A stretch of 64,000 nucleotides of DNA from Desulfosporosinus sp. Sb-LF (GTDB lineage: Bacteria; Bacillota; Desulfitobacteriia; Desulfitobacteriales; Desulfitobacteriaceae): positions 186,001-250,000 of the forward strand of contig NZ_SPQR01000004.1 of NCBI RefSeq assembly GCF_004766055.1, in the 5' to 3' direction. A model generated the notes under the pieces. That model was not told the DNA's origin. It saw nothing but the letters and a program-made list of their open reading frames with translations, and made no database searches. The position numbers were made by a program, and so were the translations under genes. Positions 43,120 through 46,398 of the stretch are shown here, in pieces. Every line of letters starts with the position of its first letter. Position 1 is the first letter of the stretch.

Positions 43120-43467
43120 TCACTCTCCCCGACCTGTCCTGACGCTGTGACACGCCTTGCACAAACACATCAAATTACTCTTGACCAAACGCAGTGCTGG
43201 GTACTCTCTAACTTTCTTGATGTGGTGGACCTCCTTTGCTGAGGTCAACCTTCCAACAAGCAAACAGTCATGGCACAAAGGATTCTCCCTGAGAACTATT
43301 TTCCGTAGCCTCTCCCAGTTGCGATCATACCCACGCTGCCTCGCCGAGCCTCGATACCTTTCGTACTCATTGACAACCTGCTGATGCTTGACGCAGTACC
43401 CACCCGCTTCCCTAGTTAGTTGTTTGCATCCTATCTGCTTGCAAGGCCTTAATGCTCTCGCTGGCAT
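43120..43467 (-). CDS. HNH endonuclease (terminase-associated)
   Basis: A 115-residue HNH protein. The metal-finger pair is present (NPLCHDC and LCKACH) and the HNH core is VHHIKKV with NLMCLC. The N-terminal part (RPCKQIGCKQ, GYCVKHQ) carries further cysteines. In cos phages such HNH proteins work with terminase to cut packaged DNA. It stands immediately upstream of the small terminase. Confidence 0.88.
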   Translation of the reverse strand: MPARALRPCKQIGCKQLTREAGGYCVKHQQVVNEYERYRGSARQRGYDRNWERLRKIVLRENPLCHDCLLVGRLTSAKEVHHIKKVREYPALRLVKSNLMCLCKACHSVRTGRGE

Positions 43468-43469
43468 AC

Positions 43470-44213
43470 CTACTTAGTCACATCTTGGTGGGCTACTGTT
43501 TCGCCTCCGCGCAATAAAAAAGACACCCGCTCAGGTGTTTTTTCACCAAGGCTATTCAAACGAGCAAACTCTCCAAAATATCGCAAAGCCGCTTGGTCAT
43601 ATGCTTGGCTGGCTTTGATAACTGTGGGATGGTATCCGAGATGAATTTTTCTCCCATCAACACCTATATAAGCTTCATATTTATTGTGTTTGGAGGAATA
43701 CCAGACACCTTTGGCTCCGCTTCTATTGTTTTTCTGAAGTCCTTTATTTCTTTTATTTTCGGTATCTGTAGCAAATCGCAAATTTAATTTCCTATTATCG
43801 GATCTAACCATATTCTTGTGATCAATTTGAACATCCTTTGGTGCAGTCATAATGAGCCGATGCTGTAAAATATATATGCCATCTACATAAGCTGACGCAC
43901 TGCCTGTTCCAGTTTGATACCAAGTGTATGCTTTAACCTTCTCATAATCATCAATGTCAAATAGAAACTCTGCCCCGTTTGGGAATGTCCCTATCATATA
44001 ACTCCCATCGTCTGATAGACTATAACTGTTAAAATTGCAATGCTGACACTTTTTAGTACGGCCAGATATTAGTGCATATCCCGTTGTAATTCGTTCCCCA
44101 CCACAGTCGCATTTACAATACCAAAGCACATGCTTGTTTTTATCACGTCCAGTTTCCTCTATTACAGTGAGACTTCCGAACTTCTTTCCTGTTAAATCCC
44201 TTTTGTGGGACAT
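43470..44213 (-). CDS. HNH-AP2 homing endonuclease-like gene carrying a methylase tail
   Basis: About 247 residues: a zinc-knuckle N-terminus (DLTGKKFGSLTVIEETGRDK, WYCKCDCGG, KKCQHC), an HNH core (YILQHRLIMTAPKDVQIDHKNMVRSDNRKLNLRFAT) and an AP2 DNA-binding domain (GAKGVWYSSKHNKYEAYIGVDGRKIHLGYHPTVIKASQAYDQAALRYFGEFA). These are free-standing selfish endonucleases. The last ~20 residues (RVSFLLRGGETVAHQDV) are homologous to the end of the adjacent methylase instead of to AP2 proteins. Start is uncertain; MSHKRDL at 44213 fits the family best. Confidence 0.85.
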   Translation of the reverse strand: MSHKRDLTGKKFGSLTVIEETGRDKNKHVLWYCKCDCGGERITTGYALISGRTKKCQHCNFNSYSLSDDGSYMIGTFPNGAEFLFDIDDYEKVKAYTWYQTGTGSASAYVDGIYILQHRLIMTAPKDVQIDHKNMVRSDNRKLNLRFATDTENKRNKGLQKNNRSGAKGVWYSSKHNKYEAYIGVDGRKIHLGYHPTVIKASQAYDQAALRYFGEFARLNSLGEKTPERVSFLLRGGETVAHQDVTK

Positions 44214-44241
44214 AGGCATCCAGCCTTTCTTTTTTGGCATC

Positions 44242-44267
44242 AAAAAAAGAGCTTAAAACCAGCTCTT
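44242..44267 (-). terminator. Terminator after the methylase gene
   Basis: AAGAGCT (44247-44253) pairs with AGCTCTT (44261-44267), followed on the minus strand by TTTTTTT. It lies 16 nt after the methylase stop and just before the HNH-AP2 gene, isolating that gene from upstream transcription. Confidence 0.75.
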
Positions 44268-44282
44268 GTTCAAAATTCTGAC

Positions 44283-45536
44283 TTAATCTTGTTTAATATT
44301 TTCCCACGCTATTTTTTCTCCCCTGCACAATAAAAAGACACCGGCGCTATTGCCAGTGCTTTCGATATATCGTTTCACAATTACGTCTGCATACTTAGGA
44401 TCGAGTTCCATCATGTGACATATTCTTTCCGTCTGATCCGATGCTAGGAGTGTTGTACCTGAGCCACCAAACAAATCGAGAACCAAATCACCTTTATGAC
44501 TTGAGTTCTGTATGGCCTTTGCTACAAGAGCTATTGGTTTCATCGTTGGATGCTCTTCCGACCGTTTCGGTCTTGGTATATCCCAGACATCGCTTTGCTT
44601 TCTATCTTCTAGAGGAACAAGCCTCGGACTACCTTCCAGCCATCCGTACCAAATCGGCTCGTACTGAGTGTGGTAGTCTTTTCGGGATAGGACCAATGAG
44701 TCCTTTCTCCAAATGACTGTGCTCGACCAGTGATAACCCGCCTCAGTTAAAACCTTCATAAGATTTCCCCACTCCTGAGCACTCATCACGATGTAGGTCA
44801 TACAGCCGGGCTCGCAAACGGCTTTCATAGCGCTGAAGGTCTTTTCCATAAACTCCTTAAATTGATCGGTTGGCATACTGTCGTTCATAATGGAGCGCGA
44901 CTTCCAGCTTGGGTGGTTGGTACTCGAACCATAGTCTACATTCCATGGGGGGTCTGTGAATACGTGCCGCGCCTTTTTGCCGTTCATAAGAACTCCGACA
45001 TCGTCAGGAGAAGTGCTGTCCCCGCACATCAATCGATGCTTACCCAAAAGCCAAACGTCGCCGCGCTTACTCATTGGGGTTTTAATTTCTTCAAGTGCCT
45101 TGGTCGCGTCGAAATCGTCCTCTTTTACATCCTCGTCAGTGGCAACTAAGTCACGAAGATCGGCGGCCTCAAAACCTGTAAGAGAAACGTCAAATCCACT
45201 TTCGCTTAGGTCTTTCAGTAAGTCCTCTAATAGTGGGGCATCCCACTCGCCGGATATCTTGTTAAGAGCGATATTCAGTGCCTTTTCCTTTTGCTCATCC
45301 ATATCAACCACAACACAGTCTATTTCCTTAGCGCCTTGTTCAGCCAATATCTTGAATCGCTGGTGGCCGCCCACAATGTTTCCGGTTTTCTTGTTCCAGA
45401 TAACTGGCTCGACATACCCAAACTCTTCAAGGCTCCTTCGGAGCTTCTCATATTCTTCATCACCAGGCTTTAGGTCTTTGCGAGGATTATATTTTGCTGC
45501 CTTTAATTGTTCTGCTGGAACTTTTCGTATATCCAT
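44283..45536 (-). CDS. ParB-domain DNA adenine methylase
   Basis: A 417-residue fusion. The N-terminal ParB-like nuclease domain is clear (VPAEQLKAAKYNPRK, GNIVGGHQRFKILAEQGAKEIDCVVVDMDEQKEKALNIALNKISGEW). The C-terminal N4/N6 methylase has DPPWNVDYG (catalytic motif IV) and DLFGGSGTTLLAS (SAM-binding motif I). Such phage methylases protect or regulate phage DNA. RBS AGAAGGAGG. It ends FLLCRGEKIAWENI, a tail shared with the next gene. Confidence 0.9.
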   Translation of the reverse strand: MDIRKVPAEQLKAAKYNPRKDLKPGDEEYEKLRRSLEEFGYVEPVIWNKKTGNIVGGHQRFKILAEQGAKEIDCVVVDMDEQKEKALNIALNKISGEWDAPLLEDLLKDLSESGFDVSLTGFEAADLRDLVATDEDVKEDDFDATKALEEIKTPMSKRGDVWLLGKHRLMCGDSTSPDDVGVLMNGKKARHVFTDPPWNVDYGSSTNHPSWKSRSIMNDSMPTDQFKEFMEKTFSAMKAVCEPGCMTYIVMSAQEWGNLMKVLTEAGYHWSSTVIWRKDSLVLSRKDYHTQYEPIWYGWLEGSPRLVPLEDRKQSDVWDIPRPKRSEEHPTMKPIALVAKAIQNSSHKGDLVLDLFGGSGTTLLASDQTERICHMMELDPKYADVIVKRYIESTGNSAGVFLLCRGEKIAWENIKQD

Positions 45537-45780: not shown

Positions 45781-46398
45781 TTAAGTTTTTATCCATATTA
45801 CCGTGGGTAAATATTTTCGAAGAGAATAAGGAAATCGTTTTTGACGTGCTGAATATAGGAATTCAACTAAGTTATGTCTTTCCCAAAGTTCAACACCATG
45901 TTCGGCAGCTAATCGTTTAGCAGATGGCCCAAAGTGTTGGTTGGTTATTGCAGCAGCAGCGTTTGCTTTGTAATGTATCTTCGCATTTAAGACTTCCTTG
46001 ATAGCCTTCTTGTCAACCACTCCACTAGCCTTTTTCTTAGCCTGGATAACGGTCTTCCCCTTTTGTGTTTCTAGTATCAAATCCGCACCCTTATCTCCAG
46101 TTAATGGCGTTCGAGTGGTTTTATGACCAAGGTCTTTAAACAAAATCTCTAACCAGATTTCAAATGAGCCACCATCCATGCTATCAGTATGCTGTATCCC
46201 CTGCCTGCGGATTCTGTGCAGTCTGTATGCTTTCCTTGCGTAAATTCCACCTGGAATGAATGCCTCAGTTAATACACCCCATAAGGTATGGGTTTTAGTA
46301 CCATAAATGAAAAAGGGAAGTCCGAGCCCCAAAAGCCATATTTCACTAGAAGTAAGTTTAATAGAGTAGGGCTTTAATTTGATCGTCTTATCTGACAC
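45781..46398 (-). CDS. Membrane-anchored Mrr-type restriction nuclease
   Basis: A 205-residue protein. One or two hydrophobic segments lie at about residues 20-50. The C-terminal Mrr_cat (PD-(D/E)XK) domain runs from about 75: FEIWLEILFKDLGHKTTRTPLTGDKGADLILETQKGKTVIQAKKK, with Asp in GADLIL and the QAK catalytic pair, then a helix and NQHFGPSAKRLAAEHGVELW. Mrr nucleases cut foreign or modified DNA. It stands in its own unit between terminators, next to the methylase, in a more AT-rich stretch than the neighbours, so it may be a moron that excludes other phages. Confidence 0.75.
   Translation of the reverse strand: MSDKTIKLKPYSIKLTSSEIWLLGLGLPFFIYGTKTHTLWGVLTEAFIPGGIYARKAYRLHRIRRQGIQHTDSMDGGSFEIWLEILFKDLGHKTTRTPLTGDKGADLILETQKGKTVIQAKKKASGVVDKKAIKEVLNAKIHYKANAAAAITNQHFGPSAKRLAAEHGVELWERHNLVEFLYSARQKRFPYSLRKYLPTVIWIKT

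Follow-up and report, generated by a model that had tools for sequence, protein, structure and literature searches.

To leave its host gene intact, a selfish endonuclease gene usually depends on an intron, an intein or a safe intergenic spot. In fungal mitochondria, a foreign C-terminus has been reported to arrive by way of a mobile ORF in atp6 of Allomyces macrogynus and in atp6, atp9, cox2 and nad3 of Glomus; the native tails are displaced and are closer to those of relatives than the inserted tails are (PMC3630166). As to phages, nuclease genes at exchange boundaries and ICP1-like IPA-HNH genes beside essential genes are described in the consulted passages of one report (PMC10448857), and in those of another the HNN-AP2 genes of Xanthomonas phages are regarded as random insertions with no preference (PMC2248197).

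In this study, a locus was analyzed in the window, the whole stretch of 64,000 nucleotides of Desulfosporosinus DNA under examination. It lies in a prophage with the gene order, on the minus strand, Mrr-like nuclease, ParB-methylase, HNH-AP2, small phage HNH and then the terminase subunits. Its sequence is very probably that of a free-standing homing endonuclease unit that brings along a new 3′ end for its target gene. As with the fungal mobile ORFs, the endonuclease gene arrives with foreign C-terminal codons in frame and the native tail is displaced downstream. The fungal nucleases are of the LAGLIDADG or GIY-YIG type and mitochondrial, whereas that of the window is HNH-AP2 and belongs to a prophage; moreover, the window unit includes a terminator, and its displaced tail is translated in frame to form the endonuclease C-terminus. 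The window unit appears to work like a fungal C-terminus-replacing mobile ORF without being a member of that group.

The seg and mob genes of T4-like phages, as described in the passages searched of a review (PMC2988022), resemble the window gene in being intronless, of HNH type (mob), present or absent at one site and transferred together with their flanks; unlike the window gene, those landing inside a gene split it (mobE/nrdA, mobA/gene 60), others lie in the gaps between genes, and no substitute tail is mentioned for them in these passages. With phage HNH-AP2 and HNN-AP2 genes the window gene shares, apparently, the domain order, the free-standing state and a position often near essential genes, and the searched passages on those genes contain no carried host-gene tail (PMC2248197; PMC10448857).

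Methylase and endonuclease genes of the window

The ParB-N6/N4 DNA methylase gene (44283..45536, minus strand; Pfam ParB_N and N6_N4_Mtase) encodes 417 aa ending in GVFLLCRGEKIAWENIKQD, and an Mrr-type restriction endonuclease gene was observed immediately upstream, at 45781-46398. The HNH-AP2 ORF that follows is open from a TTG at 44243 (44243..43470, minus strand), with the likely start at ATG 44219 or 44213 (gene as 43470..44219), and its product ends in RVSFLLRGGETVAHQDVTK. A terminator had been proposed between the methylase stop and the endonuclease, and a hairpin search did locate a terminator-like hairpin there (44247..44267, minus strand), which is taken as part of the unit; hairpins with a T run were also found in the equivalent position in the three related loci described below. 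Next comes a small phage HNH gene (43120..43467, minus strand), the original downstream neighbour of the methylase, whose stop it adjoins in relatives free of HNH-AP2.

The HNH-AP2 ORF matched Pfam HNH_3 (E 3e-6, above the Pfam cutoff), a PHROG HNH endonuclease and, weakly, Pfam AP2 (E 3.8e-6; 27.5 bits, under the Pfam cutoff of 33.3). A profile built from four HNH-AP2 sequences matched WRI1, an AP2 protein in the PDB, and the catalytic residues H117, D130-H131 and N139/N143/N152 were invariant in the four homologues. The C-terminal tail lies outside the HNH-AP2 family because, in the 257-aa ORF, the Pfam AP2 match extended no further than residue 224 and, in the 246-residue form, the PHROG HNH profiles no further than residues 224-229, short of the last 17-22 residues, because distant HNH-AP2 proteins terminated soon after the AP2 domain or helix, without a methylase-type tail, and because AlphaFold predicted residues 222-246, the tail, to be disordered (pLDDT <50). 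This agrees with the earlier note, made from the letters of the window, which had the AP2 domain ending before the tail.

Empty sites and the two tails

Relatives without HNH-AP2 were found in Desulfosporosinus lacus (L001 and L169), in the viral contigs L088, L089 and L122, and at a second prophage-type locus of the window's own genome (L181; contig C16:28303-29547), which holds an empty methylase allele. Their methylases were the closest to that of the window (84–86% identical) and finished GVFLLR(D/G)G..., followed by the stop and then directly by the same small HNH gene; otherwise similar loci thus differed by presence or absence at one site, the window being filled and L001, L088, L089, L122, L169 and L181 empty. 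In aligned DNA, the HNH-AP2 tail of the window, its stop and the next gene were colinear with the empty loci (L001, L089 and L181). The window methylase body was 88–90% identical in amino acids to those of L001 and L181, and its last 16-17 residues only 31–41% (90% and, over the last 17 residues, 41% in the case of L181). Compared with the L181 methylase tail, the HNH-AP2 tail gave a protein score of 62, matched by 0 of 500 shuffles (best shuffle, 44), and its DNA score was likewise highest with L181. By these alignments, the HNH-AP2 tail (43470..43527, minus strand; VSFLLRGGETVAHQDVTK and stop) reads as the old methylase 3′ end, displaced and now forming the endonuclease C-terminus. The earlier note had proposed that the HNH-AP2 ORF ends with a second methylase C-terminus, left there when a selfish gene invaded the methylase 3′ end, and that uninterrupted relatives should end with the endonuclease's tail; the methylases of the empty loci do so, and the proposal is supported. 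The coexistence of the empty allele L181 in the same genome means that homing was not driven to completion there.

The relation between the two tails of the window, which had been suggested for both protein and DNA, was recovered: the methylase tail and the HNH-AP2 tail gave a BLOSUM62 score of 30, reached by a fraction of 0.0004 of 5,000 shuffles, and the methylase stretch GGTGTCTTTTTATTG (44342..44328) recurred in HNH-AP2, from 43527, as GGTGTCTTTTTTATTG, one T longer. Two homologous tails with GGTGTCTTTTTATTG in common would also result if the methylase 3′ end had been duplicated locally and the endonuclease had come to lie between the copies, without any foreign tail. Such a duplication is very unlikely, since the two copies are less alike (score of 30) than the displaced tail is to the methylases of other phages (62), and since the tail type of the window methylase is also seen in three distant methylases having only the endonuclease in common.

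Because of the one extra T, the reading frame of HNH-AP2 is shifted on arrival at the tail, and from there it follows the old methylase frame to its stop. The extra base, at GGTGTC relative to the methylases, was common to the window, L173 and L176 (GGTGTTTTTTTA); this common +1 offset suggests that the fusion was founded once and that different resident tails were joined to it later. A 1-nt frame offset in the fusion, together with a variable left end of the transferred block (see below), would refine the earlier reading of the locus. In the same T run, the methylase tail was frameshifted at L002:4001-5257 and also at L115 and L170 (Desulfosporosinus sp. I2), the tail reading GDFFNSKRSKCALPRY; the homopolymer hence slips in more than one lineage.

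GGTGT lies within two terminator-like hairpins, one near the methylase 3′ end (44359-44338) and one at the right end of the endonuclease body (ACACC-TGAGCG-GGTGT plus T run; 43538-43523, minus strand), so that part of the shared DNA doubles as terminator; the arrangement GAC(A/C)CC-N6-GGTGTC in L173 and L176 resembles the latter. At both sites, GGTGT and the T run form the right arm of the hairpin, and it could be supposed that the two genes merely converged on a GGTGTC-T-run terminator, the protein likeness being a by-product. The chance of this is close to negligible: homology to the methylase ends free of HNH-AP2 extends beyond the T run, via the stop, into the next gene, and none of the 500 shuffles rose above 44 against the protein score of 62, so that the empty-site alignments refute convergence.

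Splicing was considered as well, in the form of a group I or II intron or an intein containing HNH-AP2, after removal of which the methylase would regain its original tail. HNH endonucleases are often intron-borne, and the exon-endonuclease-exon layout is superficially alike, but no Rfam intron match was obtained at E<=1, only about 63 nt separate the methylase stop from the endonuclease start, the upstream part has its own homologous, predicted-folded tail and stop, and the +1 offset would be left unexplained; a spliced insert is highly improbable. An intein in particular was rejected, as the methylase stop at 44283 precedes the endonuclease ORF and no in-frame insert lies between both flanks.

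Loci sharing the substitute tail

A genus-wide search yielded three more methylases followed by the same type of HNH-AP2, at L173 (genome G002), L176 (G001; also present as the viral contig L198/L227/L345) and L187 (G005). Their HNH-AP2 proteins were 51–52% identical in the alignment, and their methylases ended in AWKDIKQV, VWKDIKQA and AWENVKQA, respectively, compared with AWENIKQD in the window, where the substitute tail is short, about 16 residues (44283..44342, minus strand). The four filled loci represent four Desulfosporosinus genomes, and the methylase bodies were only 38–69% identical in amino acids. Among 225 distinct methylase ends having enough downstream sequence, the tail type W[KE][DN][IV]KQ was present in four, all of them with HNH-AP2, and absent in the other 221; two further ends, from Streptococcus, had a distant HNH-AP2 and a different tail. 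Under random placement, the four tails would all coincide with the six HNH-AP2-bearing ends with a probability of about 1.4e-7, although the loci are not entirely independent of one another. When 74 whole genomes were scanned with a DNA pattern for the tail, there were four matches, all at the four filled loci, and no control matches. Three viral contigs also matching the pattern were rejected because they contained chance ORFs of 15 codons and not methylases.

DNA identity between filled loci was about 50% ahead of the tail and rose abruptly to about 90% where the tail starts. In L187 versus L176, nucleotide identity was 57% in the body, 52% in the 60 codons before the tail and 92% in the first 12 tail codons, the values for L173 versus L187 being 51%, 48% and 89%; L173 and L176 became abruptly near-identical from RYIE through the tail, hairpin, HNH-AP2, displaced tail and a short flank. 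The confinement of the tail to HNH-AP2 loci and the jump in identity at the tail indicate that the tail is transferred jointly with the terminator and the endonuclease, in a single block. The left junction was variable, with raised identity starting from RYIE in L173, L176 and L187 and later in the window, near VFLL, in or near GGTGTCTTTTTATTG. Such variable tract length is what co-conversion gives (PMC2988022), and the pattern would fit it.

As judged from these alignments, the native tail of the window has been displaced, the new tail is foreign, and tail and endonuclease have moved jointly across four methylases. The suggestion that the substitute tail was brought by the invader gains support from the three further loci, which share tail and endonuclease and not the methylase body. 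The displaced type of tail on an HNH-AP2 protein without a methylase neighbour was sought and not found, as 4 of 4 close homologues follow a methylase and distant homologues lacking that neighbour do not have the tail; matches in Vibrio phages up to residue 256, an apparent tail without a methylase, were rejected because the alignment crosses a stop codon.

Displacement of the native C-terminus, evident in the window, was weak elsewhere: scores as good were given by 5 of 500 shuffles for L176 and by 71 of 500 for L173, these two forming one related pair, and no displaced tail was recognisable in L187 by the shuffle-scored tail comparison. A search for better empty relatives of L173 and L176, which might prove their displaced tail, found none.

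It is unlikely that the block moved by ordinary recombination of phages at the methylase 3′ end and that HNH-AP2 was an inert passenger. Phages recombine often, the empty allele persists in the same genome, and HNH-AP2 activity is predicted only; the catalytic residues, however, are intact and conserved, the tail block moves only with HNH-AP2, and free-standing phage homing genes carry flanking sequence by co-conversion, according to the passages searched of the review cited above (PMC2988022).

Proposed homing and related insertions

The homing unit proposed here would consist of the methylase C-terminal codons, the stop, the terminator and the HNH-AP2 gene. HNH-AP2 is predicted to cut a methylase gene free of it at the conserved VFLLR(D/N)GEK codons near the 3′ end, and repair would copy the unit from a filled relative and, along with it, adjacent sequence of variable length. 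In this way the recipient methylase would gain a foreign but working tail, and the endonuclease ORF would end in the codons and stop of the native tail, pushed about 0.75 kb downstream. As the substitute tail differs in DNA from the target, it could protect the filled gene from re-cutting. In the AlphaFold model of the methylase (44-methylase input), the tail (residues 400-416) formed a confident beta-hairpin and helix, with pLDDT of 92-93 up to residue 410 and 75 for the last block. Judging by this model, an insertion removing the last 17 residues would probably harm the enzyme, and the substitute keeps the element.

No precedent for a substitute tail in phages or bacteria was found in the literature searched, which is mostly without subscription papers, and priority is not proven. 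The chances are about even that the locus stands for a type of phage homing gene equipped with a spare C-terminus for the target and re-using the displaced tail, the first outside fungal mitochondria. If so, such genes can invade the coding sequence of useful genes, needing neither intron nor intein, and the host gene remains complete. Payment for the invasion of coding DNA with a replacement tail, as in fungal mitochondria, suggests that this strategy has had more than one origin. As alleles of both kinds, empty and filled, are known, even within one bacterium, direct tests of the cut site, the methylase cost and the protection from re-cutting are feasible. For sequence analysis, there is a warning that gene tails may differ in history from gene bodies.

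HNH-AP2 genes were also seen at the 3′ end of the ParB-methylase in the Streptococcus phages Javan122, phi-SsuHCJ3 and Javan639, with many relatives empty, as in the window. In contrast to the window, these HNH-AP2 proteins, only about 31% identical, are encoded by genes inserted at the stop codon with no real tail swap, reusing only few codons and the RBS of the next gene. The position is exactly at the methylase stop in 12 phage records (L085:2747-3337, L086, L339:1148-1738), and the last bases of the old gene, GGAGGAGACGGTATG, survive as the RBS and start of its downstream neighbour. These insertions are independent of that in the window.

Two-piece methylases of Streptococcus phages, examined as candidates, have an intein-like insert and not HNH-AP2: in YS162 and Javan575 (L083:2501-4594 and L084:2483-4594), the ParB-methylase contains the in-frame insert CQPAGTIVQTINGPVPIEDLKDGDRVIS...VTHNC between HEP and CLFGW. 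In another genome, a short HNH-AP2 gene (L225:1488-1986) was located directly upstream of a ParB-methylase, so that nucleases of HNH-AP2 type occur at both ends of this methylase gene family. Downstream of the methylase stop in many Firmicutes prophages, e.g., L090, L096 and L187, the motif CTTGACTT-N-AGAGTGATGAATGTACCTACCAAAA..AAAGGTAGG was observed, which is promoter-like and has an inverted repeat.
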